From Parapedobacter soli (GTDB lineage: Bacteria > Bacteroidota > Bacteroidia > Sphingobacteriales > Sphingobacteriaceae), in contig NZ_JAMXAY010000005.1 in assembly GCF_025460835.1 (NCBI RefSeq), positions 62,001 to 126,000 of the forward strand: DNA of 64,000 nucleotides, read 5' to 3'. Shown in pieces: positions 42,340-55,183 of this stretch; position 1 is the stretch's first letter; the number at the start of each line of letters is the position of its first letter. A model generated the notes under the pieces. That model had not been told where the DNA came from. It ran no database searches and saw only the letters and a list, made by a program, of their open reading frames with translations. A program made the translations under genes and the position numbers.

Positions 42340-42542
42340 ACTATTATTTCAGCTTCTAATCGTCGCTAAAAGTAAGAAAACTTTAAGTACATGACAAGGC
42401 TCGGTAACGGGCCATGCGACCGTCATGCAACTGCAACGCTGGCACCGGGCTTTGCCTCCCGGCGGTTCTTCCACCGACTCCTTTAGTTTTCATGCGCGGA
42501 GGGGTTCGGGTCATGCCGCACCGCGTCCGGGATATACCCAAC

Positions 42543-42752
42543 TGGTTTCATGTCGCACCGAAATGGGTTCAGGTTACACCGGCATGGTTTCATCTCGCAT
42601 CCACATGGGCTGATGTCGCACCCACATGGGTTCAGGTTACACCGGCATGGTTTCATCTCGCACCCACATGGGCTCATGTCGCATCCGCATGGGTTCATGT
42701 CGCATCCGCACGGGTTCAGGTTAAGCGGACATGGACCCAGGTTAAGCCGGAC
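42543..42752. repeat. 21-bp minisatellite, ten units
   Basis: Ten head-to-tail 21-bp units run from 42543 to 42752. In the plus frame they encode heptads of the form W-x-(Q/H)-V/L-(T/A)-P/S-x; in the minus frame they encode Cys-rich heptads (NPCGCDM-like). Units 2-4 (42564-42626) and 5-7 (42627-42689) repeat almost exactly, giving a 63-bp higher-order period. A plus-strand frame of 134 codons (42414-42818) contains the array but has no recognised domain, and both strands are open, so coding status is doubtful. GC-rich sequence that looks like decayed units continues toward 43170. Confidence 0.8.
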
Positions 42753-43813: not shown

Positions 43814-44350
43814 ATGACCGAAGACAACATTTCACCTACAAGAGGTACTGCTCAATTTAACGATTATCTTGTTAAGTACAAGGATCAAGCGAGGAAGGAA
43901 AAAGTAAATAATTTCTATCATGTTGATGTCGTCGCTGATGCCTATAATCAAGGGTTCAGTGACGGGGAACAGAAAGGTAGAAAAGAATTCATTGACGAAC
44001 TCGTGAAAAGTACGACCGAACGATTTACCCAACAGGCTAATCAGGTGTATATACTAACTAATGTTGCTGTATCTCATCTTCAAAAACATGGATACAAGGT
44101 CAATGCTTTTTTTATAAACATTGCTCATCTAAATCCTAAGGCACTCATTGCTGTTGATGGTGATTTGTTATTGGATGATGCATTTGTTGAGTTGTCTTAT
44201 TCAAAGCTGTTTGAGTTAAAAAAGATTTTCACCAAACTATTTGATTGCACTTTAGATATTGGGTTAATTTCGTACGATAACCTTGACAGGGATGCACTCA
44301 AAGAGGATCGGTTCGATTATTCTGAATTTATCGGTGCTATTAATGAGTAG
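43814..44350 (+). CDS. Unknown protein encoded upstream of a HEPN-like gene
   Basis: This 178-residue soluble protein has no signal peptide or membrane span. The N-terminal half is polar and helical (YNQGFSDGEQKGRKEFIDELVKSTTERF). The C-terminal half alternates strands and helices (VNAFFINIAHLNPKALIAVDGDLLLDDAFVELSYSKL, then TLDIGLISYDNLDRD) and ends KEDRFDYSEFI. I recognise no family. The strand-rich acidic C-terminal half could be a nucleotidyltransferase-like fold, but that is a guess based on its HEPN partner. It has its own promoter and overlaps the next gene by 8 bp, so the two are translated as a unit. Codon use is AT-richer than in the flanking core genes, suggesting transfer. Confidence 0.6.
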   Translation: MTEDNISPTRGTAQFNDYLVKYKDQARKEKVNNFYHVDVVADAYNQGFSDGEQKGRKEFIDELVKSTTERFTQQANQVYILTNVAVSHLQKHGYKVNAFFINIAHLNPKALIAVDGDLLLDDAFVELSYSKLFELKKIFTKLFDCTLDIGLISYDNLDRDALKEDRFDYSEFIGAINE

Positions 44351-44738
44351 GAAGCGAGAACATGGTGAAAGGAATTTCGAGCTTTCTGAACTTCTTCATG
44401 AGGGAAAGAAATATTACGACTGGGTGGTTACTACTTGTTTTTATGCTGCTATTCATTTTGTAGAAGACGTTTTATTACCATGTGAGATTAATGGTAGTAG
44501 CTGCAAGACAATCTCCGATGTCAAATCAGCGTACAAAATGCAAGGTCGACATTCTGCGAGGGAAAGACTTGTATGTGAAAAAATGGATTTGCAGACTGCA
44601 GTCAAATATAAGTGGCTTGATGATAAATCTAGGTATTCAAGATATACCACCTATAAGGTTACCCCAACTGAAGCCGATAAGGCCAGGGAATACACTAGAC
44701 AGATCCAAAACAGATGCTACGACGTAAACCAAACTTAA
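44343..44738 (+). CDS. HEPN-like small protein
   Basis: The 131-residue all-helical protein starts at the ATG at 44343, inside the end of the preceding gene (ATGAGTAG overlap). ELLHEGKKYYDWVVTTCFYAAIHFVEDVLLP, GRHSARERLV and KYKWLDDKSRYSRYTTYKV follow the pattern of HEPN proteins with a YDW...YAAxH helix, a H-x3-R element and a terminal SRxxRY element. The classical RNase motif R-x4-6-H is not seen, so nuclease activity cannot be assumed. Gene pairs of this type are often toxin-antitoxin or antiphage modules; the partner here is unknown. A terminator follows 26 bp downstream. Confidence 0.6.
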   Translation: MSRKREHGERNFELSELLHEGKKYYDWVVTTCFYAAIHFVEDVLLPCEINGSSCKTISDVKSAYKMQGRHSARERLVCEKMDLQTAVKYKWLDDKSRYSRYTTYKVTPTEADKAREYTRQIQNRCYDVNQT

Positions 44739-44760
44739 AATAAGTGGACGGAATTATTAT

Positions 44761-44970
44761 AAAACAAAACCCCATCAACCTAATGACGGGGTTTTGTTCG
44801 TTTTTAAGGATTTTGCGGTTCCACTATAAGTAATATTAAAATTCCAGTTATCCCAAGTCGGTAAACACCCGCTCAATTCGCCCCACAATTCGCTCCAACA
44901 GCACAAAACAAAATAGCAACCAACTGAAAAACAATTGATTGCTTTGTGAAGCAGTCGGGATGACAGGATT
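44761..44970 (+). mobile_element. Right-end remnant of an older, related integrative element
   Basis: This 210-bp stretch parallels the right end of the intact element (52334-52531). The order is a 31-bp identical block containing a terminator (44761-44791 versus 52334-52364), a worn arm site (44879-44898 versus 52440-52459, 15 of 20 bases equal), a shared CAACTGAAAA tract, and the 17-bp tRNA-end core (44954-44970 versus 52515-52531). The gap from arm site to core is 55 bases in both. It therefore marks the end of a second element, whose last genes would be the HEPN pair. Confidence 0.75.
44764..44805 (+). terminator. Rho-independent terminator after the HEPN-like gene
   Basis: ACAAAACCCC (44764-44773) pairs with GGGGTTTTGT (44788-44797), with TCA/TGA closing further inside, and TTTTT follows at 44801. 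The same hairpin, with a weaker downstream arm, recurs at 52337-52370 after the last gene of the intact element. Confidence 0.8.
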
Positions 44971-45029
44971 GGCTACGTCGCGCTATCCCCGCACTAAAGG
45001 CCGCAGCCATCCTTGAGGTGGGGAGGTCT

Positions 45030-45153
45030 CAACTAAAAAACGCCTGCTCTACGTGCCTGTGACTTTTACTGTTTTTCCACTCGCTCAAACGAGCTTGGCT
45101 CGCTTTAAAAACAGTAAAAGCCCTCCACCTACTTGCGGAGAGCTTTTTAGTTG
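45030..45153. repeat. Nested inverted repeat near the left attachment site
   Basis: The outer arms are CAACTAAAAA (45030-45039) and TTTTTAGTTG (45144-45153). The inner arms, perfect over 14 bp, are CTTTTACTGTTTTT (45063-45076) and AAAAACAGTAAAAG (45107-45120); between them CTCGCTCAAACGAG can fold again. The whole 124-bp unit is noncoding and ends exactly at the 13-bp core copy at 45154. It could be a structured RNA, a recombination substrate or a small non-autonomous insertion. Confidence 0.6.
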
Positions 45154-45166
45154 GTCGGGATGACAG
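45154..45166 (+). repeat. Third, partial copy of the tRNA-end core
   Basis: GTCGGGATGACAG repeats the first 13 bases of the attachment core exactly 200 bp to the right of the copy at 44954. A further TGAACC seven bases on also fits the tRNA T-arm. It may be the true left end of the intact element, leaving 44971-45153 as a separate insert. Confidence 0.6.
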
Positions 45167-45282
45167 TTCTTGAACCTTTTATTTTCATAGTCGCTAACAT
45201 TAACCTAAAATAGGCCAATACACCTTTTAAACGCATATTTTGTTAACACGTGTAAACCAATGTTAATAAAAACATCACATTT

Positions 45283-45304
45283 ACAGCCCCACAAATAGCC
45301 CCAC
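45283..45304 (+). repeat. Candidate integrase arm site, left
   Basis: A 22-bp sequence made of two AGCCCCAC words 12 bp apart. An identical 22-mer lies at 52438-52459 near the right end. Paired 8-bp words near both ends of a tyrosine-integrase element are what an N-terminal arm-binding domain would contact. The function is inferred. Confidence 0.6.
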
Positions 45305-45319
45305 AAAATTTATAATGTG

Positions 45320-45327
45320 TATATTTG
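45320..45327 (+). promoter_or_regulatory. Candidate -7 element of the integrase gene
   Basis: TATATTTG fits TAnnTTTG and ends 23 bases before the integrase ATG at 45351. It starts 15 bp after the arm site, so integrase bound at the arm could repress its own promoter. Confidence 0.5.
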
Positions 45328-45350
45328 CTATACGTTTTAAAATTCGACTT

Positions 45351-46712
45351 ATGGCATTGAAAACAACTTTCGAGTTGCGCCGGGATACGGCCAACAAAAA
45401 GGGAGAACACCCGGTTACCCTGATTGTATGGGTTGCAGGGAACCGCCGTAAGCTATCCACCGGGATTACTCTGCTGCCGGAGCAATGGGATAGCGAAAAC
45501 CAACAAGCCGTTTACATCAACCGCAAAGAGGCTAAAAGGCTATTGCCCAACATGAACCCGGACACATTGCCGTACAATGACGACATAAACCGCATCAATA
45601 AGGAATTGCGTTCAATTGCCGATGAAGTATCGGACATTGCCACGAAGTTTGAGATTGACCGTATCGCTTATACCGTTGAGGATGTTATCAGCGAATTTAA
45701 AACACGACGGAAACCCCAAGCCCAAAAGGTTGACCCTAAACACTACCTTGTCGACTTCATCGATCAATATGTTAATGACGTAAGAGCCACGCGCAACGAG
45801 GGTACGGTCAAAGTCTACATAACGACACGTAACCATATTGATGACTATGAAAAGCACAAGCGGCAAAGGATAACGATGGAAAGCGCGGGATACGGTTTTT
45901 TGCAGGCGTTCTACAATTATCTGATTGAGGAAAAAGGACAGATCAACGTTACCGCAGCAAAACAGATAACAACCGTCAAAACGTTTCTTTCCTTCGCCCG
46001 GAAACATGGCCACACGATAAACCAGACTTACCACGACTTCACCGTCAAGCGTGAAACGCTGGAAGTCATTGCACTGACCGAAAATGAGTTTCTGACACTG
46101 TACAATCTTGATTTAACCGGGGATGGTAAGGTATTGATACAGTCCGAACCGAAAGCCCTTTACATTTCACTAAACGCATTGGCTAAGGTTAGGGACGTGT
46201 TTTGTTTTTCATGCGTCACCGGGTTGCGGTATTCAGACCTTGCGCAATTGCGCCGTGAACACATCAAGAACGGCTACATACGGTTGACCGTCACTAAGAC
46301 CAAAGAACCCATTGAAATACCGTTGACGGCTTACGCAGCCGAAATACTGGCTAAGTACCCAAACCGGATAAAGATATTGCCTGTAATCAGTAGCCAAAAA
46401 TTCAATGCCTATCTGAAAGCCTTATGCAGGTATGCCGGGATAAATGAGGAAATTGAGATAGTACGCTACAAGGGTGCAAAACGCTATGCGGTAGTTTATC
46501 CCAAGTATGAATTGATAAGCGCCCACACCGGGCGCAAGACGTTCGCAACCCTATCACTCGAAAAGGGGTTGAACGCAGAGGAGGTAATGAGCATCACCGG
46601 GCATAAAAGCTATGCGAGCTTCAAAAGGTACGTGAAGGTCACACAAGAACGCAAAAAAGCGGTAATGGTTAAGGCGTGGGGTGCGCCGGAAACGATGAAA
46701 AAAGTAGACTAA
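45351..46712 (+). CDS. Tyrosine recombinase / integrase
   Basis: The protein is 453 residues from the ATG at 45351; an earlier in-frame start adds 12 unconserved residues and overlaps the promoter. The N-terminal arm-binding-like domain (about residues 1-90) contains FELRRDTANKKGEHPVTL and GNRRKLSTGITLLPEQWD. The core-binding SAM-like domain is at about 120-230. The catalytic domain (about 250-445) has the Arg in TGLRYSDL (about R293), a Lys in TKTKEPIEIPL, HTGRKTFATL (about H392 and R395), GHKSYASFKRY and the Tyr nucleophile (about Y427). All catalytic residues are present. It should carry out integration and excision at the tRNA-Pro core. Confidence 0.95.
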   Translation: MALKTTFELRRDTANKKGEHPVTLIVWVAGNRRKLSTGITLLPEQWDSENQQAVYINRKEAKRLLPNMNPDTLPYNDDINRINKELRSIADEVSDIATKFEIDRIAYTVEDVISEFKTRRKPQAQKVDPKHYLVDFIDQYVNDVRATRNEGTVKVYITTRNHIDDYEKHKRQRITMESAGYGFLQAFYNYLIEEKGQINVTAAKQITTVKTFLSFARKHGHTINQTYHDFTVKRETLEVIALTENEFLTLYNLDLTGDGKVLIQSEPKALYISLNALAKVRDVFCFSCVTGLRYSDLAQLRREHIKNGYIRLTVTKTKEPIEIPLTAYAAEILAKYPNRIKILPVISSQKFNAYLKALCRYAGINEEIEIVRYKGAKRYAVVYPKYELISAHTGRKTFATLSLEKGLNAEEVMSITGHKSYASFKRYVKVTQERKKAVMVKAWGAPETMKKVD

Positions 46713-46722
46713 AATAAACCTT

Positions 46723-46950
46723 ATGATGAAAGACAACAACGAACTGGACAGGTTAAAGAATGAACTATTTGCACGGCTGGAGGAACTCGATGACATGAAA
46801 ACAAGGTTGATTCAAAGGAATGATCAGCTTATCAATGCTAATAAAAAGATTGAGAATTTAAGAAAAGTGATAATGAACCTTACGGAGGGCAAACGAGGGT
46901 GTGTGGGTACTGACTTTCTAAACCTTAGAATGAAACATAATTTGAATTGA
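46723..46950 (+). CDS. Small coiled-coil protein of unknown function
   Basis: The 75-residue, highly charged protein contains a heptad-like helix (about residues 5-50, LDRLKNELFARLEELDDMKTR and INANKKIENLRKVI) and a short basic tail. I recognise no family. It lies 11 bp after the integrase gene and just before the next unknown gene, so it is probably co-transcribed with them. It could be a small partner or regulator of its neighbour. Confidence 0.55.
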   Translation: MMKDNNELDRLKNELFARLEELDDMKTRLIQRNDQLINANKKIENLRKVIMNLTEGKRGCVGTDFLNLRMKHNLN

Positions 46951-46955
46951 TTGAG

Positions 46956-47798
46956 ATGGGAAAGAAACTACTTACAGACGATTACAATGAGATTGTAAAG
47001 GGCGCGTTTAAGATTGATGAAAGCGATTTTCACAACTATTACCTGAATATCGTAAACGAGCATTACGAAAGCAATAACGATATTGCGGAAAAACTGATTG
47101 AATTTGTCGAAAAATGGGCAGACGGTTTTAGGGGTTACGTGATAGACCACGACAATGCGATTCTATCCTATGATAGGTTCAAAGCATGGAACGCGGGAGG
47201 TTTATTTTTTCCATTACCCAACAACCTAAGTCAACAACTGGGGATAATTCGACAGGTAAATAAACCATTCTTTGACGGTCAAATAGAGCAAATAGAGCGC
47301 ATAAAAACATTAATTGAGTTGAGGGAACTCCAAAAGAAACTTGAAAGCCTTGCACCTAAAATCGTTGTTAATGCGACAAACGAGTTATGTCCTTATAATG
47401 GGGAGCTTGACTTTGAAAAAATTAATGAGCGGAAACGGATACTGGATTTGGTGACAATGAAATTTGACGAAGGTAAACGAAAGCCTAAAAACAATGACAA
47501 AGTGCCAAACGGTGCGCAATGGGCGGTGATATTTCACTACGCACACAAAAGCGGCGGTTTGCCTGACGCTACCAATGATGACGATAGAATAAAAGCTTTC
47601 ATAGATGATCACGAAATCAGTCAAACGTTTAAGTATCTACGTAAGGAATACTACGATGCAAAGAAAAAAATTGATGACGATTGCAGTTTTTCAATAGCGA
47701 AATTGGAAGCCGTCATTCATTACTTGAAAAGCATGTATCCAAACGGCGCAACGCTTGCGGAAAATGATATGGCCCACATAAAAAGTATGCAAGAATAG
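46956..47798 (+). CDS. Unknown element-borne protein, mostly helical
   Basis: From the ATG at 46956 this is 280 residues with no membrane span; a TTG three codons earlier is possible. The N-terminal two thirds are helical and charged. The C-terminal part (about residues 185-275: PNGAQWAVIFHYAHKSGGLPDATNDDDRIKAFID..., FKYLRKEYYDAKKK) resembles a domain often seen in proteins next to Bacteroidota integrases, recalled from memory. Its position between integrase and excisionase suggests either element regulation or cargo such as a defence protein. No catalytic motif is evident. Confidence 0.55.
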   Translation: MGKKLLTDDYNEIVKGAFKIDESDFHNYYLNIVNEHYESNNDIAEKLIEFVEKWADGFRGYVIDHDNAILSYDRFKAWNAGGLFFPLPNNLSQQLGIIRQVNKPFFDGQIEQIERIKTLIELRELQKKLESLAPKIVVNATNELCPYNGELDFEKINERKRILDLVTMKFDEGKRKPKNNDKVPNGAQWAVIFHYAHKSGGLPDATNDDDRIKAFIDDHEISQTFKYLRKEYYDAKKKIDDDCSFSIAKLEAVIHYLKSMYPNGATLAENDMAHIKSMQE

Positions 47799-47876
47799 TC
47801 GCCCTTTACCGAAGCCGAGAAAAAAAATAAAATTTTTCTTTCTGATATTCAATCATTTGAAACTATTTTCTTGCCA

Positions 47877-47900
47877 GTAACCCGTTAGTTACCGGGTTAC
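47877..47900. promoter_or_regulatory. Inverted repeat upstream of the excisionase-primase operon
   Basis: GTAACCCG (47877-47884) and CGGGTTAC (47893-47900) form perfect 8-bp arms around TTAGTTAC, which itself repeats part of the arm. It lies 45 bp before the ATG of the excisionase-like gene in a 146-bp gap that is otherwise A+T-rich. It could be an operator or a binding site for replication or excision proteins. Confidence 0.55.
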
Positions 47901-47944
47901 CCTTTACTTGTTTTGACCCATTGTTAATTCAAAATGTAAAAACA

Positions 47945-48223
47945 ATGGAACAAGTATTTTTTAATGTACCCTTAAGCAAACTGGAACCCGTGTTTAAGGG
48001 ATGGGTGCGTGATTGCCTAAATGAACGTACCGTGGAGGAACAAACCACACCAGAAATAATAGACGGTGACGAACTAATCAAGAAACTTGGGATTACCCGG
48101 CAAACATTGTTACGTTGGCGAAAGCAAAACCGCATCCCTTACGTACAGGCCGGGAGCGTCATCCGCTATGATTTAAACAAGGTTATTAAAGCCTTAGAAA
48201 ACAAGAAAGGGGGTGCCAGATGA
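47945..48223 (+). CDS. Excisionase-like helix-turn-helix protein
   Basis: The 92-residue protein carries a MerR/excisionase-type helix-turn-helix (HTH_17 style) at about residues 40-90: IIDGDELIKKLGITRQTLLRWRKQNRIPYVQAGSVIRYDLNKVI. In related elements such proteins act as excisionase or transcriptional activator. The start at 47945 is preferred over an in-frame codon 24 bases earlier. It overlaps the next gene by 4 bp (ATGA), the first of a chain of overlapping genes leading to the primase. Confidence 0.8.
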   Translation: MEQVFFNVPLSKLEPVFKGWVRDCLNERTVEEQTTPEIIDGDELIKKLGITRQTLLRWRKQNRIPYVQAGSVIRYDLNKVIKALENKKGGAR

Positions 48224-48507
48224 CAACCCCTAACAATAACTTTCAAGGACAGGGCAAAGATAGCAATCACAGCGTGCAAAAGCGAATTTTCGCAGCCTAT
48301 TTGCGCCGGAAAACAGCCACCTGCACAATGGTTGCAGAGGATACCGGGATACGGCAGAAATGCCTGACCAGATACAAACGCGAGATGCAGCGCATGGGCT
48401 TGCTGGAAGTGGTTTTCACAGCTCCATGTAAGTATACCGGGCGCGTAGCTCAATACCTCACCACCAATCCGGCACTTATCCAGTCACTGAAAGGAGGTAA
48501 GCGATGA
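48220..48507 (+). CDS. Small winged-helix-like protein
   Basis: The 95-residue basic protein contains SVQKRIFAAYLRRKTATCTMVAEDTGIRQKCLTRYKREMQRMGLLEVV (about residues 18-64), which has the spacing of a winged helix-turn-helix with a following wing. Proteins like it commonly sit between excisionase and primase genes in Bacteroidota elements. It overlaps its neighbours on both sides by 4 bp. Control of replication or copy state is a reasonable guess. Confidence 0.65.
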   Translation: MTTPNNNFQGQGKDSNHSVQKRIFAAYLRRKTATCTMVAEDTGIRQKCLTRYKREMQRMGLLEVVFTAPCKYTGRVAQYLTTNPALIQSLKGGKR

Positions 48508-48695
48508 GGTCACATAAAAAATGGGCGCACCGACATACGGGCGACATGACCCAGCTTATGCGCTACCTGAAAAGGCTCCCTATGTTACCCAACATCGGCG
48601 AGCCGGGTATCAACCGCCTTGCCAAACAATGGGACACCGCACGGGATAAGGTTTATGGTTTAATCACAAAAGTTTTGAGCGATGGAAGCTATTAA
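48504..48695 (+). CDS. Very small basic protein
   Basis: This 63-residue protein is rich in Arg, Lys and His (KKWAHRHTGDMTQLMRYLKRL). The second half (GINRLAKQWDTARDKVYGLI) could form a helix-turn-helix. It overlaps the preceding gene by 4 bp and the primase gene by 14 bp, so its expression is tied to the replication operon. No family is recognised. Confidence 0.55.
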   Translation: MRSHKKWAHRHTGDMTQLMRYLKRLPMLPNIGEPGINRLAKQWDTARDKVYGLITKVLSDGSY

Positions 48696-50238
48696 GATAA
48701 ACCCGGCATTTGATGACCTTATCAACCCGGAAACAATCATCAACCACATGGAGCAACTTAAAAGCATTAGCCCATCAATGCCCCATGCTGAAATATTGCA
48801 TCAACTGATAGAACAGATTGAACCGCTGGATTTTGAAGTATTGGCGTTTCCACAGGCCAAACAATTAAGGGAACAGCTGGAAAGGGCAACGCACGGAAGC
48901 GATGAAGCGAAGGACATTCAAAAGCAACTGGACGGCCTGAAACTGAACCTTAAACATTATTTGGTTTTGTCCGTTGAAAACGCGCTAATGTTAGCCGAAA
49001 AAAACCGTTGGGGCTTGTGCAAAAACCACGATTTTATTTACCTCTACAATGGAACCTATTGGGCCGACATTGACAAAGAGACATTCCAGAAGTTTTTGGG
49101 TGAAGCAGCCGAAAAAATGGGCGTAACCAAGTTTTCAGCAAGGTTTTACCAATTTCGGGAACAGCTTTTCAAACAATTCCTTGCAACCGCTTATTTGCCC
49201 ACACCGGAAGGCAACAAGGATAAGGTACTGATTAACCTACTCAACGGAACATTTGAAATAAGCCCGCAGGGAACGAAGCTAAGGCCGTTCGACCGCAACG
49301 ACTTCATTACATACCAATTACCTTTTGAATACGACCCGACAGCCAAAGCGCCTTTGTTTGAAGCATACCTAAACCGGGTATTGCCTGACAAAGAACGTCA
49401 ACGGGTATTGGCCGAGTACTTAGGTTTTGTTTTCATCAAGCACGGCAGTAACGCATTAAAAGAGGAAAAAGCCCTTATCCTGTACGGTACGGGCGCAAAC
49501 GGTAAAAGCGTATTCTTTGAAGTTGTCAACGCCTTGTTGGGTACGGATAACATTAGCAGCTATTCATTACAGAGCCTGACCAATGATAACGGGTATTTCC
49601 GGGCAAAGCTGGCTAACAAGTTGGTCAATTACGCAAGTGAGATTAACGGCAATTTGGAAGCGTCCATTTTCAAACAATTGGTATCTGGTGAACCCGTTGA
49701 AGCCCGCTTACCTTATGGCCAGCCTTTCATCTTGAAGCAGTACGCCAAACTGATTTTCAATTGTAATGAATTGCCCAAAGACGTTGAACATACAAACGCC
49801 TATTTCAGGAGGTTTTTAATCATCCCGTTTGATGTTACTATTCCCGAACACGAACAGGATAAAAGCCTACATACAAAGATCATTGAAAACGAGCTATCAG
49901 GCGTATTCAATTGGGTATTGCAAGGACTTAACAGGTTGCTGGAGCAAAAGAAGTTTTCAGATTGTGAAGCAGCCCAACAAGCCGTTGAACAATACAAAAT
50001 TGAAAGTAACAGCGTACAGATGTTTTTGAATGAAAACGAATACAAAGGCAGTTTAACCAATTACAAGTTAATAAAAGACCTGTACCCGGAATATAGAGCC
50101 TTTTGTATTGATGACGGAATGACACCTTTCAAAAAGACCAATTTCATAAAACAGTTACGGGCTTTGAGTTTGGTTGTAGATAGGGTTTCACAAAACCAAT
50201 TGGCGGTTTTTATTGAAGCACCGGGACTAAGTTTTTAA
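48682..50238 (+). CDS. P4-type DNA primase-helicase (D5/SF3 helicase)
   Basis: The 518-residue protein has a D5-type N-terminal region (about residues 90-250: LINLLNGTFEI, DFITYQLPFEYDP, YLGFVFIKHGSN). The superfamily 3 helicase domain follows (about 255-420). Walker A is GTGANGKS (about 269-276); further motifs include LANKLVNYASEING, KQLVSGEPVEARLPYG and LIFNCNELPKDVEHTNAYFRRFLIIPFD. The C-terminal region (about 440-510) resembles the D5 DNA-binding winged helix. It would unwind and start replication at the element's origin after excision, as the alpha protein does for satellite phage P4. It lacks an obvious toprim domain, which may be supplied by the next gene. Confidence 0.9.
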   Translation: MEAIKINPAFDDLINPETIINHMEQLKSISPSMPHAEILHQLIEQIEPLDFEVLAFPQAKQLREQLERATHGSDEAKDIQKQLDGLKLNLKHYLVLSVENALMLAEKNRWGLCKNHDFIYLYNGTYWADIDKETFQKFLGEAAEKMGVTKFSARFYQFREQLFKQFLATAYLPTPEGNKDKVLINLLNGTFEISPQGTKLRPFDRNDFITYQLPFEYDPTAKAPLFEAYLNRVLPDKERQRVLAEYLGFVFIKHGSNALKEEKALILYGTGANGKSVFFEVVNALLGTDNISSYSLQSLTNDNGYFRAKLANKLVNYASEINGNLEASIFKQLVSGEPVEARLPYGQPFILKQYAKLIFNCNELPKDVEHTNAYFRRFLIIPFDVTIPEHEQDKSLHTKIIENELSGVFNWVLQGLNRLLEQKKFSDCEAAQQAVEQYKIESNSVQMFLNENEYKGSLTNYKLIKDLYPEYRAFCIDDGMTPFKKTNFIKQLRALSLVVDRVSQNQLAVFIEAPGLSF

Positions 50239-50261
50239 CGCAAATAAAAAAGGTTTTTTCA

Positions 50262-51707
50262 ATGAGTAACTTTAATAACTTTAGTAACCAACCCCACCGA
50301 TACAGTTTAGAAAAAGGCAGTAAAAAGCACCATTGCCCCGACTGTAACAAAAAGACGTTTGTACTGTATATTGATACAGAAACAGGCGACCACTTACCCG
50401 AACAGTACGGACGTTGCGACCGTGAAAGTAAATGTTCATACCACCTCAACCCTTATTCAGACGGTTACGCAAAAGCAATTTGGGAACAGGAACAGGGCAA
50501 CCGTTCGGAATTACCGAACAAATGGAAACCCCAACAAAAAAAGAAAGCACCACGGCCCGAACCTCAACCCGTTTACTTTGACTTTGATACATTCAAACAG
50601 ACATTGCAGCCCGAGCGCTATGTAATTAATACGTTCATCCAAAACCTGCTAAGCCGGGTACAATTTCCCTTTGGAGTTGATGAGGTCACAAAGGTTATCG
50701 AGCTGTACAGACTTGGTACGGTGGCCAATGGCTACAGAGCCGGAGCCGTCACCTTTCCGTTTATTGACGTTGGGGGTAACGTTAGGGCCATACAAGTAAA
50801 ACAATTTGACGAACACAACCACACCACAGGTACGGACTTTTTACACTCCATCATCGAGAAACATCACACCCGTAACAACAAGCCGTTGCCCGATTGGCTG
50901 GAAGCATACACAAGGCAGGATAAACGAATTTCCTGTTTATTTGGCGAACACCTTTTAAGCAAGTACCACAGCAACCCCGTTGCATTAGTTGAAGCCCCAA
51001 AAACAGCCGTTTACGGTACATTGTATTTTGGTTTGCCTGAAACACCTGAAAGCCTTATTTGGTTGGCAGTTTACAACAAAAGCAGTTTTTCATTTGACAA
51101 GCTGAAAGTATTACAAGGGCGTTTTGTTTATGTATTTCCCGACCTTTCAAAAGACGGTAACACCTTCAAAGAATGGGAAACCAAAGCCAAAGAATATGAA
51201 AGCCGTTTACCCGGTACACGCTTTATATTTTCGGACTTACTGGAGCAGTTAGCACCTGAACGGGACAAAAGCGAAGGCAACGACCTTGCAGACTATTTAA
51301 TAAAACAGGATTGGCGACTATTCAGGAAACGGAATATTCAGGAACAACCACCACAGCCCGAACCTGAAAAAGTTACTAAAGTTACTAAAGTTACCCCCCA
51401 ACAAAACATTATTTTTTCACACGTTGAACCATTGCCAAAAGTTGAGGTATTCAAAACTGAACGAATTGAACAGCCCCAAAACTGGAGCAATGATATTGCA
51501 GAATTTGAAAACTACTTTGCAAGTATTGAACTACCAACCCAACCCATAAAGCTGAACAGGTGCAGCACAATAACGGATTGTTCCCTATTCATTGAAAGCC
51601 ACTTTGCCACCTTGAAAGCGAACAACAGTAAACGGACATTCTTACCCTACCTCAACCGCCTGCAGGAGCTGAAACGCATTTTAATTTCATCCCCTGTATC
51701 ACGTTAA
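50262..51707 (+). CDS. Zinc-finger/toprim-like replication protein (DUF6371-like)
   Basis: The 481-residue protein has an N-terminal zinc-finger-like region with CPDCNKKTF and CDRESKCSYH (about residues 26-66). A long middle domain (about 95-350) includes VTFPFIDVGGNVRAIQVKQFDE, a VALVEAPKTAVYG strand (toprim-like Glu) and FVYVFPDLSKDGNTFKEWE (Asp-rich strand). I read it as the primase half of the system and as similar to DUF6371 proteins. The C-terminal 130 residues are Pro/Glu/Thr/Val-rich (KVTKVTKVTP repeat) and look disordered. It follows the primase-helicase by 23 bp. Confidence 0.72.
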   Translation: MSNFNNFSNQPHRYSLEKGSKKHHCPDCNKKTFVLYIDTETGDHLPEQYGRCDRESKCSYHLNPYSDGYAKAIWEQEQGNRSELPNKWKPQQKKKAPRPEPQPVYFDFDTFKQTLQPERYVINTFIQNLLSRVQFPFGVDEVTKVIELYRLGTVANGYRAGAVTFPFIDVGGNVRAIQVKQFDEHNHTTGTDFLHSIIEKHHTRNNKPLPDWLEAYTRQDKRISCLFGEHLLSKYHSNPVALVEAPKTAVYGTLYFGLPETPESLIWLAVYNKSSFSFDKLKVLQGRFVYVFPDLSKDGNTFKEWETKAKEYESRLPGTRFIFSDLLEQLAPERDKSEGNDLADYLIKQDWRLFRKRNIQEQPPQPEPEKVTKVTKVTPQQNIIFSHVEPLPKVEVFKTERIEQPQNWSNDIAEFENYFASIELPTQPIKLNRCSTITDCSLFIESHFATLKANNSKRTFLPYLNRLQELKRILISSPVSR

Positions 51708-51734
51708 AACTTCTTAATTATTTAGGTTTGCATT

Positions 51735-52328
51735 ATGGGAAGACCACACACATTGCCGGATTTGTATGACAGCGTTTTAAGGCTTAGGCTTGCGTTGTTG
51801 AAGCGTGACGGCTATTTTAAACCCAATATCCGTAGATCGGGCATTGTCACTTGGCATGACAGGTACGGTGAAAAGCGTGCGAGCATTTCCATTGAAACCA
51901 ATACCCTATCTGACGATGGGCATTATATCGAACTGGATTACAGGTATGGGGGCGATACCCGTAAGTACAGGGTATACATTACCTATCAGCCGTCAAATCT
52001 TGGAAAGGGATTGATACCTTATTTCGTCTGCCCGCAGACAGGGAAGCGATGCCGGATACTTTACAGTATTGGCGGTTATTTCCTGCACCGGGAAGCGTTC
52101 AACCATGCCATGTATGAGTGCCAGACGCAAAGCAAAAGGTACAGGGATTTAGAACGGCTTTATGGCGCACATTTACGACTGGACAGTAATTATGAAAAAC
52201 TTCACAAAAAACATTTTATGAAGTATTATGCCGGGAAGCCGACAAAGCGATACCAAAAAATATTGAGGGAAATACAACGCGGCGAAAGCGTGCCATACCA
52301 AGAAGTGGAGCGGGCGATGATTATGTAA
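51735..52328 (+). CDS. Unknown element-borne protein with possible zinc-binding core
   Basis: The 197-residue basic protein contains VCPQTGKRCRILYSIGGYFLHREAF...YECQTQSKR (about residues 98-140), a Cys-rich strand pair of a kind seen in small proteins of Bacteroidota and proteobacterial mobile elements. The N-terminus (MGRPHTLPDLYDSVLRLRLALLKRDGYFKP) is helical. It is the last gene of the element and is followed by the conserved terminator repeat. The function is unknown; nucleic-acid binding is plausible. Confidence 0.6.
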   Translation: MGRPHTLPDLYDSVLRLRLALLKRDGYFKPNIRRSGIVTWHDRYGEKRASISIETNTLSDDGHYIELDYRYGGDTRKYRVYITYQPSNLGKGLIPYFVCPQTGKRCRILYSIGGYFLHREAFNHAMYECQTQSKRYRDLERLYGAHLRLDSNYEKLHKKHFMKYYAGKPTKRYQKILREIQRGESVPYQEVERAMIM

Positions 52329-52333
52329 GAAGC

Positions 52334-52364
52334 AAAACAAAACCCCATCAACCTAATGACGGGG
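52334..52364 (+). repeat. 31-bp block identical to 44761-44791 (terminator hairpin)
   Basis: All 31 bases match the copy after the HEPN-like gene. It contains the CCCC-TCA/TGA-GGGG hairpin; the downstream T-run is weaker here (CTTCGTACGTTTT). It ends the element's operon and, with the core and arm site, defines a conserved right-end module. Confidence 0.75.
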
Positions 52365-52437
52365 CTTCGTACGTTTTAAAATACCTTGCGGCACTGGAAC
52401 AAAGATAGCACATTTCTTTGACCTGAAAACAGTCAAA

Positions 52438-52459
52438 ACAGCCCCACAAATAGCCCCAC
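52438..52459 (+). repeat. Candidate integrase arm site, right
   Basis: Identical to the 22-mer at 45283-45304. It ends 55 bases before the attachment core at 52515, the same spacing as in the older right end at 44898/44954. Confidence 0.6.
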
Positions 52460-52515
52460 TACCAAAAACAAAAACAGCAAACAACTGAAAACCAATCGAT
52501 TGCTGCTTAATTATG

Positions 52516-52589
52516 TCGGGATGACAGGATTCGAACCTGCGGCCTCTTCGTCCCGAACGAAGCGCGCTACCGGGCTGCGCTACATCCCG
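52516..52589 (-). tRNA. tRNA-Pro (anticodon CGG)
   Basis: On the minus strand the 74-base sequence folds as a cloverleaf: acceptor CGGGATG/CATCCCG with discriminator A, D-arm with AGCGCAGCCCGGTAGCGCG, anticodon stem CTTCG/CGAAG around TTCGGGA (anticodon CGG, reading CCG), and T-arm with GGTTCGAATCC. CCA is not encoded. Its 3' end is the insertion site of the integrative element to the left and remains intact. Confidence 0.96.
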
Positions 52590-52707
52590 TTCCACTGGTA
52601 ACGTGGGTGTGCAAAAGTATTACTTTCTTCTCAAAAATGAAAGCTCGAATTCATTCTAAAATGTATCGCTGACCAATTCCCCCCTAGTCAAAAACTCAAA
52701 ACATTTC

Positions 52708-52736
52708 TTGCATATTCAGACTTTTATTTAACTTTG
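52708..52736 (+). promoter_or_regulatory. Promoter of the membrane protein-regulator operon
   Basis: TTG (52708-52710) and TAACTTTG (52729-52736) fit the -33 and -7 elements with an 18-base gap. The start codon is 20 bases downstream at 52756. The -7 region continues as ACTTT...AAAGT, a looser version of the palindrome at 53706, so it may also be an operator for the regulator encoded in this operon. Confidence 0.65.
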
Positions 52737-52755
52737 AAAAAAAAAGTACTTTTAA

Positions 52756-53379
52756 ATGAAAACGAAACAGGACTACATCGGAGACATCGCGGAAATCCGT
52801 TCGATGATGGAGCGGACCTCTAAGTTTCTGTCGCTCTCCGGGTGGGCGGGGGTAATGGCTGGTATCTATGCAATCGCTGCAGTTTATCTGGCTTACACAG
52901 TCCTTGGTTTTAATCCCGGGGGCATCACTTATGGCACCGCCCCGGCAAATCCGGCGCCAGCCCTCCCTCAGCTTCTCACTTTGGCCATCGGCACGTTGCT
53001 ACTCGCCGTTGGCACCGCAGTTTTCCTATCCCACCGGAAATCGAGCAAACGGGGTGAAAACCTTTGGAATAGCACATCCCGCCGCATGGTCACCACGATG
53101 ATTATTCCGCTAGTTACGGGCGGCGTATCTATCCTGATTTTGCTATCGTACGGATTAGTTGGACTGGCCGCACCTCTTTCCTTGATTTTCTATGGACTCG
53201 CCCTCTATAGCGCCGGCAACTTCACCTATAGCGCGGTTAAGTGGTTAGGGGGTATTGAAATTACACTTGGGCTTATCGGCCTTGGCTTTATTAGTTACGG
53301 ATTAATTTGCTGGACCATCGGCTTCGGTTTGCTGCATATCGTTTATGGCATCTATATCTATTATCGTTTCGAGAAGTGA
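52756..53379 (+). CDS. Integral membrane protein, about six spans
   Basis: The 207-residue protein begins MKTKQDYIGDIAEIRSMMERTSKFLSLSGW, a soluble helix followed by about six hydrophobic spans (for example ILILLSYGLVGLAAPLSLIF and GLGFISYGLICWTIGFGL). No enzyme motif is present. It overlaps the winged-helix regulator by 4 bp (GTGA), and the DUF4153 membrane protein follows, an arrangement I recall as common in Sphingobacteria. The role may be envelope sensing. Confidence 0.75.
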   Translation: MKTKQDYIGDIAEIRSMMERTSKFLSLSGWAGVMAGIYAIAAVYLAYTVLGFNPGGITYGTAPANPAPALPQLLTLAIGTLLLAVGTAVFLSHRKSSKRGENLWNSTSRRMVTTMIIPLVTGGVSILILLSYGLVGLAAPLSLIFYGLALYSAGNFTYSAVKWLGGIEITLGLIGLGFISYGLICWTIGFGLLHIVYGIYIYYRFEK

Positions 53380-53675
53380 AATTAGCAATAGACGGATTAT
53401 ATAAGGCATTCGAAAGCCGGGTGAGGCTTGGCATCATGTCGGCATTGGCCGTTAACGATACGCTCGACTTCAACGCGCTGAAAGAGTTTTTAGGTGTCAC
53501 CGACGGGAATCTGGCGAGCCATATCAAGGCATTGGAAAAGGAGCAATTCATCGGCGTAAACAAGTCGTTCGTAGGAAAGAAACCGAATACACAATATCAT
53601 ATAACAGCGGAGGGCAAAACTGCATTCAACAGACACCTGAAAGCACTGGAACAACTAATCGAATCACAGAAATAA
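53376..53675 (+). CDS. Winged-helix transcriptional regulator
   Basis: The 99-residue regulator starts at the GTG at 53376, which overlaps the previous stop by 4 bp. It is a compact winged helix-turn-helix: LYKAFESRVRLGIMSALAVNDTLDFNALKEFLGVTDGNLASHIKALEKEQFIGVNKSFVGKKPNTQYHIT, with the recognition helix at about residues 40-55 and the wing near KKPNTQYHIT. It is of MarR/ArsR-like size without a ligand domain. The candidate target is the palindrome AACTTTGA-AAA-TCAAAGTT at 53706, directly downstream and ahead of the DUF4153 gene, and its looser copy at the operon promoter. Confidence 0.82.
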   Translation: MKLAIDGLYKAFESRVRLGIMSALAVNDTLDFNALKEFLGVTDGNLASHIKALEKEQFIGVNKSFVGKKPNTQYHITAEGKTAFNRHLKALEQLIESQK

Positions 53676-53759: not shown

Positions 53760-55001
53760 ATGAAAACGGAAATCTGCACCCACCTCAACAACCCCGTGCA
53801 ATTGGAAATATTATACCGCACAAACCGTGCGGCATTCAAGCAATCGTTCAATGACCTGCTTCCAACCCTCAAGGGTAATATCATTGCCGAGTGTTGGGAC
53901 GCGCGGTTGAATTATACGGGCCGAACCATCGATCGAAGTACCCGAATGGACCTGATATTTATCACCGTCGCAGCTATTACCCTAGGCTTCATTGGCCAAT
54001 TTCCCACGGTGTTCGGCATCGATAGCGATTTCTTCTACTCCCGGAACATCGGCTTCATGGTTTTCCCACCTTTAACGATGTACTTTGCATGGAAACATCG
54101 CCTACCAGCGGCAAAAATTGCTTTCCTATTCGGTGCAATGCTTATCTGCTTGCTTTTCATCAACCTAATGCCAGATATTCCAACGAGCGACACGGTTGTA
54201 TTATCATGCTTCCACCTCATACTTATACTGTGGTCTATATTGGGTATTGCGTTCGTAGGCAGCACCCGCGACAGGAGCGAACAGCGGATCCGGTTTCTCA
54301 CATACAACGGCGACCTATTGGTGATGATGGCGCTTATCTCCATGGGCGGTGCTATCCTTTCGGGCATCACCGTCAACTTGTTCTCGGCAATCGGGTTTAA
54401 CATTGAAGAGGCCTATTTCCGTTATGTCGGGATCACAGGCGCAGTCGCAATACCCTTGGTTGCCACCTACCTGATCCGGTCCAACCCCCAGCTAGTCGGA
54501 AAAATCTCACCGATTATCGCACGGATATTCTGCCCGCTGGTATTGGCAATGCTTATCATCTTCCTCCCTGCCATGGTTTACGGTGGGAAAGACCCTTATA
54601 CCGATAGGGAGTTCCTGCTGATTTTCAACATCCTATTAATTGGCGTAATGGCCATTATCTTCTTTTCCATCGCCGGTACTTCAGACCGCGCCCGAAGGCG
54701 TACGGAAGTATGGGTGATCACATTACTTGCCATTGTGACAGTTGTTGTCAATGCTGTGGCCCTCTCCGCCATCCTTTTCCGCATCACCGAATGGGGGATT
54801 ACACCCAACAGGGTAGCTGTACTCGGTGCCAATTTATTGGCTATAGTAAACCTCTTGCTGGCAATCGTCCAGCTTTTCAGTGTACTACGGGGCAGTGCAC
54901 CGATAGATAAAGTCCAAAATGCCGTTGCACGGTACCTGCCCGTTTATTGCCTGTGGGCCATTGCTGTGACGTTCATATTCCCGCTGGTATTTGGGTGGTG
55001 A
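53760..55001 (+). CDS. DUF4153-type integral membrane protein
   Basis: The 413-residue protein has about 10-11 membrane spans after a soluble N-terminal segment of about 65 residues. Short polar loops carry VGSTRDRSEQRIRFLTYNGD and IAGTSDRARRRTEVW; the overall pattern (NLFSAIGFNIEEAYFRYVGI in mid-protein) fits the DUF4153 family. The family function is unknown. It stands behind a winged-helix regulator and a palindromic site, so it is probably inducible. The gap to the tRNA-Leu contains a weak inverted repeat (AAAAAGAGGCCGCCTTTTT, 55055-55075) that may end transcription. Confidence 0.75.
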   Translation: MKTEICTHLNNPVQLEILYRTNRAAFKQSFNDLLPTLKGNIIAECWDARLNYTGRTIDRSTRMDLIFITVAAITLGFIGQFPTVFGIDSDFFYSRNIGFMVFPPLTMYFAWKHRLPAAKIAFLFGAMLICLLFINLMPDIPTSDTVVLSCFHLILILWSILGIAFVGSTRDRSEQRIRFLTYNGDLLVMMALISMGGAILSGITVNLFSAIGFNIEEAYFRYVGITGAVAIPLVATYLIRSNPQLVGKISPIIARIFCPLVLAMLIIFLPAMVYGGKDPYTDREFLLIFNILLIGVMAIIFFSIAGTSDRARRRTEVWVITLLAIVTVVVNAVALSAILFRITEWGITPNRVAVLGANLLAIVNLLLAIVQLFSVLRGSAPIDKVQNAVARYLPVYCLWAIAVTFIFPLVFGW

Positions 55002-55100
55002 GCCGCGGAAAAAGCACAGTTGCACCCGGGGGTAAGGTAGGCAGTAATACAAATAAAAAGAGGCCGCCTTTTTGAGACAGCCCCTAAGATTCCTGTGCCG

Positions 55101-55183
55101 TGCGGAAGAGCAGATTCGAACTGCCACGCCCTTAGGGCGCCACCCCCTCAAGATGGTGCGTCTACCAATTTCGCCACTTCCGC
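55101..55183 (-). tRNA. tRNA-Leu (anticodon GAG)
   Basis: On the minus strand an 83-base class II tRNA is visible: acceptor GCGGAAG/CTTCCGC with discriminator A, D-arm TGGCGAAATTGGTAGACGCA, anticodon stem CCATC/GGTGG around TTGAGGG (anticodon GAG, reading CUC), a long variable arm GCGCCCTAAGGGCGT, and T-arm AGTTCGAATCT. CCA is not encoded. No element is inserted here. Confidence 0.96.

Follow-up and report, generated by a model that had tools for sequence, protein, structure and literature searches.

What is the large foldback that lies between two copies of an attachment core, next to an integrase gene, in the window analyzed here (64,000 nt of the Parapedobacter soli genome), and does it belong to the integrase element or to the chromosome? 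A first-pass annotation had described a nested inverted repeat adjoining a core, and we confirmed each part of that description. The repeat covers 124 bp (45030-45153) and adjoins the core GTCGGGATGACAG at 45154, its 10-bp outer arms read CAACTAAAAA (45030-45039) and TTTTTAGTTG (45144-45153), its 14-bp inner arms (45063-45076 and 45107-45120) are 100% complementary and 30 nt apart, and the core is found exactly at 44954 and 45154, 200 bp apart. We found a third exact copy of GTCGGGATGACAG at 52515 and a further match with a mismatch at 54426, where 0.09 matches are expected by chance and 0/100 shuffles reached four. No ORF of at least 80 aa overlaps 44954-45153. Folded as RNA, the minus strand of 45020-45166 gave a z score of -3.37, with 0/200 shuffles as good; a longer stretch of the window copy that includes a second hairpin folded less remarkably (z -1.9), and the idea of a plus-strand RNA (z -0.88 for the foldback) was dropped.

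The core at 52515 is the 3' end of a tRNA-Pro(CGG) gene called by ARAGORN on the minus strand, and the 17-bp copy at 44954 corresponds to nucleotides 58-74 of this tRNA. On the tRNA strand, 45154 is followed by ...CATCCCGA-CCA-ACTAAAAAGC and then by an intrinsic-terminator-like hairpin (45147-45116). When 45154-52514 was removed in silico and 45153 joined to 52515, an intact 77-nt tRNA-Pro with CCA was regenerated, with the foldback directly behind it. Since this junction restores the tRNA, the integrated element, termed element A, ends at 45154 and the foldback is a chromosomal tRNA tail; the left boundary, earlier called ambiguous, is thus fixed. The features of the locus are as follows.

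52515-52589, minus strand: tRNA-Pro(CGG) (ARAGORN; Rfam tRNA, 67.7 bits)
52515-52527, minus strand: attR core of element A, the last 13 nt of tRNA-Pro(CGG)
45154-52514, plus strand: integrated element A, about 7.4 kb (7.36)
45354-46712: tyrosine recombinase with arm-binding domain, element A
47921-48223: HTH protein, element A
48682-50238: P4-type primase, element A
50262-51707: DUF6371/zinc-ribbon protein, element A
45283-45304, plus strand: left copy of ACAGCCCCACAAATAGCCCCAC, identical at 22/22 positions to its partner at 52438-52459
45154-45166, minus strand: original tRNA 3' end displaced by element A, with attL core CTGTCATCCCGAC (from in silico element removal)
44971-45153, minus strand: tRNA-tail unit of 183 nt, beginning with the CA that completes CCA and ending at the duplicate tRNA end
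44954-44970, minus strand: duplicate of tRNA-Pro nucleotides 58-74, AATCCTGTCATCCCGAC (the first core of the first-pass annotation)
44761-44953, plus strand: right end of element B, a second element related to element A and adjoining the duplicate core, with 69-70% identity between the two right ends

The junctions show that the 17-nt copy supplies another tRNA end, 200 bp downstream of the first one, that element A sits between the tRNA and the unit, and that the right end of the related element B lies on the duplicate. The ACAGCCCCACAAATAGCCCCAC pair is probably an integrase arm site. Two relatives (G003 and G005) carry the unit at tRNA-Pro(CGG) with nothing in between. With the 207-aa neighbor gene as a synteny anchor, tRNA-Pro was found beside it in 0/29 relative loci.

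Across 207 positions, 44761-44966 shares 69% identity with the right end of element A, core included (52334-52527); the duplicate core is therefore where another element of this kind, or a remnant of one, ends. No further core with at most one mismatch was found to the left in the window, so that the placement of element B on the duplicate rests on one junction; element B may be a remnant whose left partner is undetectable in the window. Two overlapping reading frames at 43814-44738, without a Pfam, NCBIfam, or PADLOC match, are probably cargo of this left element. A defense-gene reading of the unknown ORFs was rejected, as 0/6 matched PADLOC. Farther left, a 21-bp tandem repeat of 8.7 copies (42536-42718) generates low-complexity reading frames that overlap each other, on both strands.

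The foldback is part of a chromosomal unit of about 183 nt behind tRNA-Pro(CGG), and this unit is a member of a dispersed family of tRNA and tmRNA tails. The 187 bp between the cores have three partial relatives in the same genome and matches in 8/59 other genomes, those in G047 and G051 being short, without a tRNA, and probably due to chance. Copies behind tRNA-Ser(TGA), Ser(GGA), Leu(GAG), Pro(TGG/GGG/CGG), and tmRNA align over their whole length. We built a covariance model, R1, from 15 copies that all lie behind a tRNA or tmRNA (that of the window behind the displaced end), leaving out L002, L048, L050, L051, and L055 (no adjacent gene called) and L058 (internally deleted). R1 was then used to search genomes with no tRNA criterion; at most six candidates were scored per genome, and copy numbers are therefore lower bounds. 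Matches were found in 106/399 genomes of the bacterial family, and the window's own unit, one of the 15 builders, matched at 44964-45151 on the minus strand (144.4 bits). We retained 142 matches of at least 54.9 bits, setting aside duplicate places (L197 and L233), antisense matches, and some dozen of the weakest entries listed. Evaluation of their surroundings revealed that 94/142 start at most 8 nt from an intact tRNA or tmRNA (Ser, 67; Pro, 15; Leu(GAG), 6; tmRNA, 4; Lys, 2). Forty of the remaining 48 lie behind a tRNA-end-like 17-mer, compared to 13/480 random positions; the others are six tandem copies in tmRNA arrays, one copy cut by a contig end, and one orphan.

We also looked beyond the family. 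A search of 395 genomes of the phylum, including the window's own, yielded matches in 16. There were 25 matches outside the own genome, of which we read 18; 14 of these lie at most 12 nt from a tRNA called by ARAGORN, with Leu(TAA), Lys, Cys, and Arg among the neighbors, while by eye L291, L292, and L296 have a tRNA T-arm or a tandem copy next to them and L288 has neither. A scan with a DNA pattern returned 39 stretches, 13 in Parapedobacter or Olivibacter and 26, candidates by pattern only, in unrelated groups. Several copies depart from the simple arrangement: a unit in the window's own genome lies 946 bp behind tRNA-Ser(GCT), with a tRNA-end-like fragment before it (L093, 2215-2365), and six shortened tandem units, mostly 131 bp apart, follow the tmRNA of G022 (L058, C95, 975-1733). 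A second unit type, or a fragment of one, GGATGAGAACCC(GCAGGGTTCGA), occurs behind tRNA-Ser and tmRNA (L281, L269, L271, L278, and L302); this GGATGAGAACCC type resembles the E. coli rtT sequence GGATGAGAA..GGTTCGA.

Rfam searches assigned none of the units scanned to a known family. In the window from 44000 to 53500 (E of at most 1), they returned only the tRNA and a sub-cutoff rnk leader outside the unit, and across 17 loci (E of at most 0.1), no family reached its cutoff on a unit. Sub-cutoff matches on units (Leu_leader in L060, sX4 in L225, and mir-325 in L149) were taken as chance, and Plastid-psbl-rps4 matches were read as the antisense of tRNAs. Nine relative loci (L161 being also among the 17) gave one weak RtT match within a unit at E of at most 1 (L163, 26.3 bits). 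None of the titles and abstract openings retrieved from the open-access literature described such tRNA-tail units; tRNA ends are reported as insertion hotspots (PMC10589994).

We then analyzed the architecture of the unit. On the tRNA strand, it opens with the CA that completes CCA, followed by the first strand of P1, P2 with a T-run, P3, P4, and the closing strand of P1; thereafter come a pyrimidine-rich linker, P5 (GGCTGCGG..CGCAGCC), and tRNA nucleotides 58-74 again. P4, a small hairpin, appears in single-sequence folds and is absent from the consensus. In the window, the other helices are located as follows.

45030-45153, minus strand: P1, the outer stem enclosing the foldback, arms 45030-45039 and 45144-45153; covarying helix 1
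45116-45147, minus strand: P2, an intrinsic-terminator-like hairpin followed by a T-run, directly behind the tRNA
45063-45120, minus strand: P3, a long hairpin with 14-bp arms; covarying helix 3
44965-45013, minus strand: P5, the GGCTGCGG..CGTAGCC hairpin with the tRNA-specific clamp AGGAT/ATCCT, from the alignment; covarying helix 6

A terminator consensus scan found two sites of the P2 kind in 1201 bp, with 1.2 expected. The fold itself is strongly conserved by paired changes: 26 of the 45 consensus pairs changed on both sides, a result reached by 0/500 shuffles and compared to 4 to 11 pairs in slid controls, and 93.9% of the consensus cells were paired (81.2% when shuffled, at most 51.7% when slid). 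On average, the arms of a copy also fit each other better than they fit those of other copies, with mean energies of -13.9 versus -6.2 kcal/mol for P1 and -15.1 versus -6.8 kcal/mol for P3; none of 10,000 permutations, which ignore relatedness, was as good, and in 9/15 copies, for P1 and likewise for P3, no other copy provided a better partner.

The unit is moreover fitted to its tRNA at two places. The clamp of P5 reads GGGAT, AGGAT, or CAGAT according to the tRNA, complementary to the T-stem strand of that same tRNA, and all five pairs form in 81/138 copies, compared to 428/6900 shuffles. The GGGAT clamp is present in 58 of the 86 ATCCC copies (2 fit ATCCT), AGGAT in 16 of the 20 ATCCT copies (3 fit ATCCC), and CAGAT in 4 of the 6 ATCTG copies (1 fits ATCCC). 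The second place is the 17-mer at the tail, which matches at least 15/17 letters of nucleotides 58-74 of its own tRNA in 41/94 copies, a level that the best 17-mer of another isotype reaches in 1/94. Some other isotype fits the tail better than its own in 32/94 copies, with 7 ties; we read the copies that fit another isotype better as decayed.

Presence and absence of the unit vary among tRNAs. In the window's own genome, the tails of tRNA-Leu(GAG) (55100-55183), Pro(GGG), and Pro(TGG), the last by eye, are without a unit, and relatives carry units behind all three. G215 has units behind tRNA-Ser(GCT), and 11 orthologues of this locus, at least 81% identical over the upstream flank and the tRNA, gave no R1 match at E of at most 1 and by eye have a plain terminator. 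In one of the unit-free orthologues (L253, from G174), a further tRNA-Ser-like 3' end occurs about 100 nt behind tRNA-Ser(GCT). Single pairs point to units having been exchanged from one tRNA to another: the units behind Ser(GGA) in G000 (L004) and behind Ser(TGA) in G004 (L054) are 83% identical, compared to 69% for two units that both lie behind Ser(TGA) (L003 and L054). Mean identity was 0.657 for the same tRNA in different genomes (10 pairs) and 0.584 for different tRNAs in the same genome (13 pairs), which favors vertical inheritance at many loci. Insertion of elements between a tRNA and its unit, as in the window, recurs: an integrase arm-binding domain lies beside a tRNA-Ser-like fragment at L002, and several other units have only a tRNA fragment before them. 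An ISL3-type transposase gene was found between two units at L231, and similar sequence abuts the 3' end of a unit at L204; the L231 transposase was considered as a helper or autonomous version and rejected, since in our reading an IS has landed there within an array of units.

We propose that a palindromic DNA unit would insert at the 3' end of a tRNA and would thereby duplicate nucleotides 58-74 of whichever tRNA is hit. Such a unit may be tolerated, as CCA is rebuilt and a terminator comes with it. Arrays would then result from tandem duplication on the spot, and the duplicate tRNA end would offer an extra attachment site for tRNA-targeting recombinases. As a whole, the explanation by a chromosomal tail unit, its presumed spread, and an extra attachment site is in our view probably correct; for the spread of the unit as palindromic DNA that inserts at the tRNA end and duplicates nucleotides 58-74 of its target, we see the case as evenly balanced. 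Against this explanation stand that no transposase or helper was identified and that no movement was observed; the group averages, the G215 repeat that runs beyond the tRNA end, the 32/94 tails with a better fit to another isotype, the single junction behind element B, and the further tRNA-Ser-like end at L253 also count against it. The first-pass suggestion of a small insertion between two cores came close, although what was called a core is a tRNA 3' end and the insertion concerns the tail of the tRNA gene, not the integrase element.

Two other readings deserve weight, each of which we regard as rather unlikely. The units could have arisen by tandem duplication only, with slippage or gene conversion of the tRNA 3' end and its trailer, and template switching to produce the arms, nothing being mobile. 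Arrays such as that of the G022 tmRNA, with its mostly 131-bp steps, agree with this, as do the group averages, which favor inheritance of a unit at one and the same tRNA. At G215 and L060, repetition does not stop at the tRNA end but continues into the arm and terminator, as expected of a plain tandem duplication. However, a closely similar P5 (GGCTGCGG..GTGCGGGG..CGCAGCC) is found at Ser, Leu, Pro, and tmRNA tails, and P5 must therefore either have moved from locus to locus or have been converted among tRNAs that are unlike each other.

The second of these readings, on which we place no greater confidence, is that the unit is a functional noncoding RNA, a trailer transcribed with the tRNA or tmRNA and processed out, whose fold would be under selection as RNA. 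E. coli rtT has been reported to be transcribed with its tRNA and processed out, and an sRNA, RttR, is annotated at that locus. The strong covariation, the fixed position behind a tRNA or tmRNA, and the tmRNA tails of G000 and G005, which keep P1 by paired changes, all speak for such a role, as does the better folding of the foldback itself on the tRNA strand than on the opposite one. Over 60 distinct units, however, the tRNA strand had the lower z score in 31 (mean, -5.99 versus -5.85), and thus there is no general strand preference such as G-U pairs would give an RNA. Owing to the T-run after the first hairpin, most transcripts would be expected to end before the rest of the unit, and by eye, units follow just 3 of the 43 tRNA and tmRNA tails listed for the window's genome. 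Equal folding of both strands, together with the early terminator, argues for maintenance as DNA. Of the first-pass idea of a structured RNA made from the end of the element, the structured RNA may hold, but not its making from that end; for an origin-type structure, also raised at that stage, nothing was found in support.

A function of the foldback as an end of the integrase element is very improbable: its place between a core copy and the integrase suggested this, but cutting the element out at 45154 restores the tRNA, units occur in relatives where no element is present, the nearest integrase homologue (L040, 46% identity, among 59 other related genomes) has by eye an ordinary terminator hairpin before its tRNA-Ser-like core, and R1 found no unit in 4/4 homologous integrase loci, so that, contrary to the element function first considered, the foldback does not serve the element. 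More distant relatives of this integrase were found at two loci in viral contigs (19% identity).

Among known systems, E. coli rtT (tyrT/tyrV; RF00391, RtT) is the closest in layout, as it also lies directly behind a tRNA and its tRNA-end copy starts at A58. At tyrT/tyrV, we counted six 19-nt copies of the tRNA-Tyr end from A58, two of which are the genes' own ends, in steps of 175, 119, 178, 178, and 178; the 10-nt GGGGAAGGAT, complementary to the copy, is present in 3/5 intervals, namely, the three of 178 bp, and absent from the other two. In contrast, sequence and fold differ, and several tRNA species and tmRNA carry units here, whereas E. coli was examined at tRNA-Tyr only. RtT copies are in tandem while the window has one unit, although relatives do have tandem copies. 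The RF00391 model, which scores four E. coli copies, had no match in the window from 44000 to 53500 (E of at most 1) and two weak matches in 301 genomes of the family (best, 28.1 bits; cutoff, 45), both ending in a tmRNA-like tail copy and one lying behind a tmRNA called by ARAGORN. The unit is thus of the rtT kind by architecture and not a member of RtT by the model.

Integrative elements that use tRNA ends (tyrosine-recombinase islands) likewise repeat part of the tRNA 3' end at their far end, like attL and attR; the unit has its own two direct repeats of this kind at 45154 and 44954. The unit differs from them in its size of about 180 nt and in having neither a gene nor a recombinase of its own, the integrase being that of element A, and an intact copy fits the local tRNA whatever its isotype. 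With MITEs and REP-type repeats the unit shares that it is short, noncoding, dispersed, palindromic, and found in local arrays, but it lies in one orientation at tRNA and tmRNA 3' ends, has a 17-nt repeat derived from the tRNA, and is without an identified helper. As for a target duplication of the MITE type, the 17-nt copy reaches at least 15/17 in 41/94, and no autonomous partner was identified. The end boxes of integron attC sites are RYYYAAC and GTTRRRY; by reading only, the foldback ends TCTCAAC and GTTGGTC do not fit them, and an attC site was rejected.

For decades, the tandem repeats that follow E. coli tyrT have stood as an oddity of one locus. Units of the same architecture, found in one bacterial family behind Ser, Pro, Leu, Lys, and tmRNA genes and elsewhere in the phylum, in scattered members, at further tRNAs, make this oddity a class open to comparison, dating, and testing. 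They also illustrate how spare attachment sites of the tRNA-end type can come about, a point to bear in mind when the limits of integrated elements are drawn; in the present case, one limit could have been placed 200 bp off. More speculatively, and we consider this doubtful, the units may constitute a widespread mobile class without genes, of which rtT would be a known yet unrecognized case and whose members would insert behind tRNA genes through base pairing of a short clamp with the T-stem strand of the target. If true, members of this class would duplicate nucleotides 58-74 of their target, restore CCA and a terminator, and seed attachment sites for larger elements.
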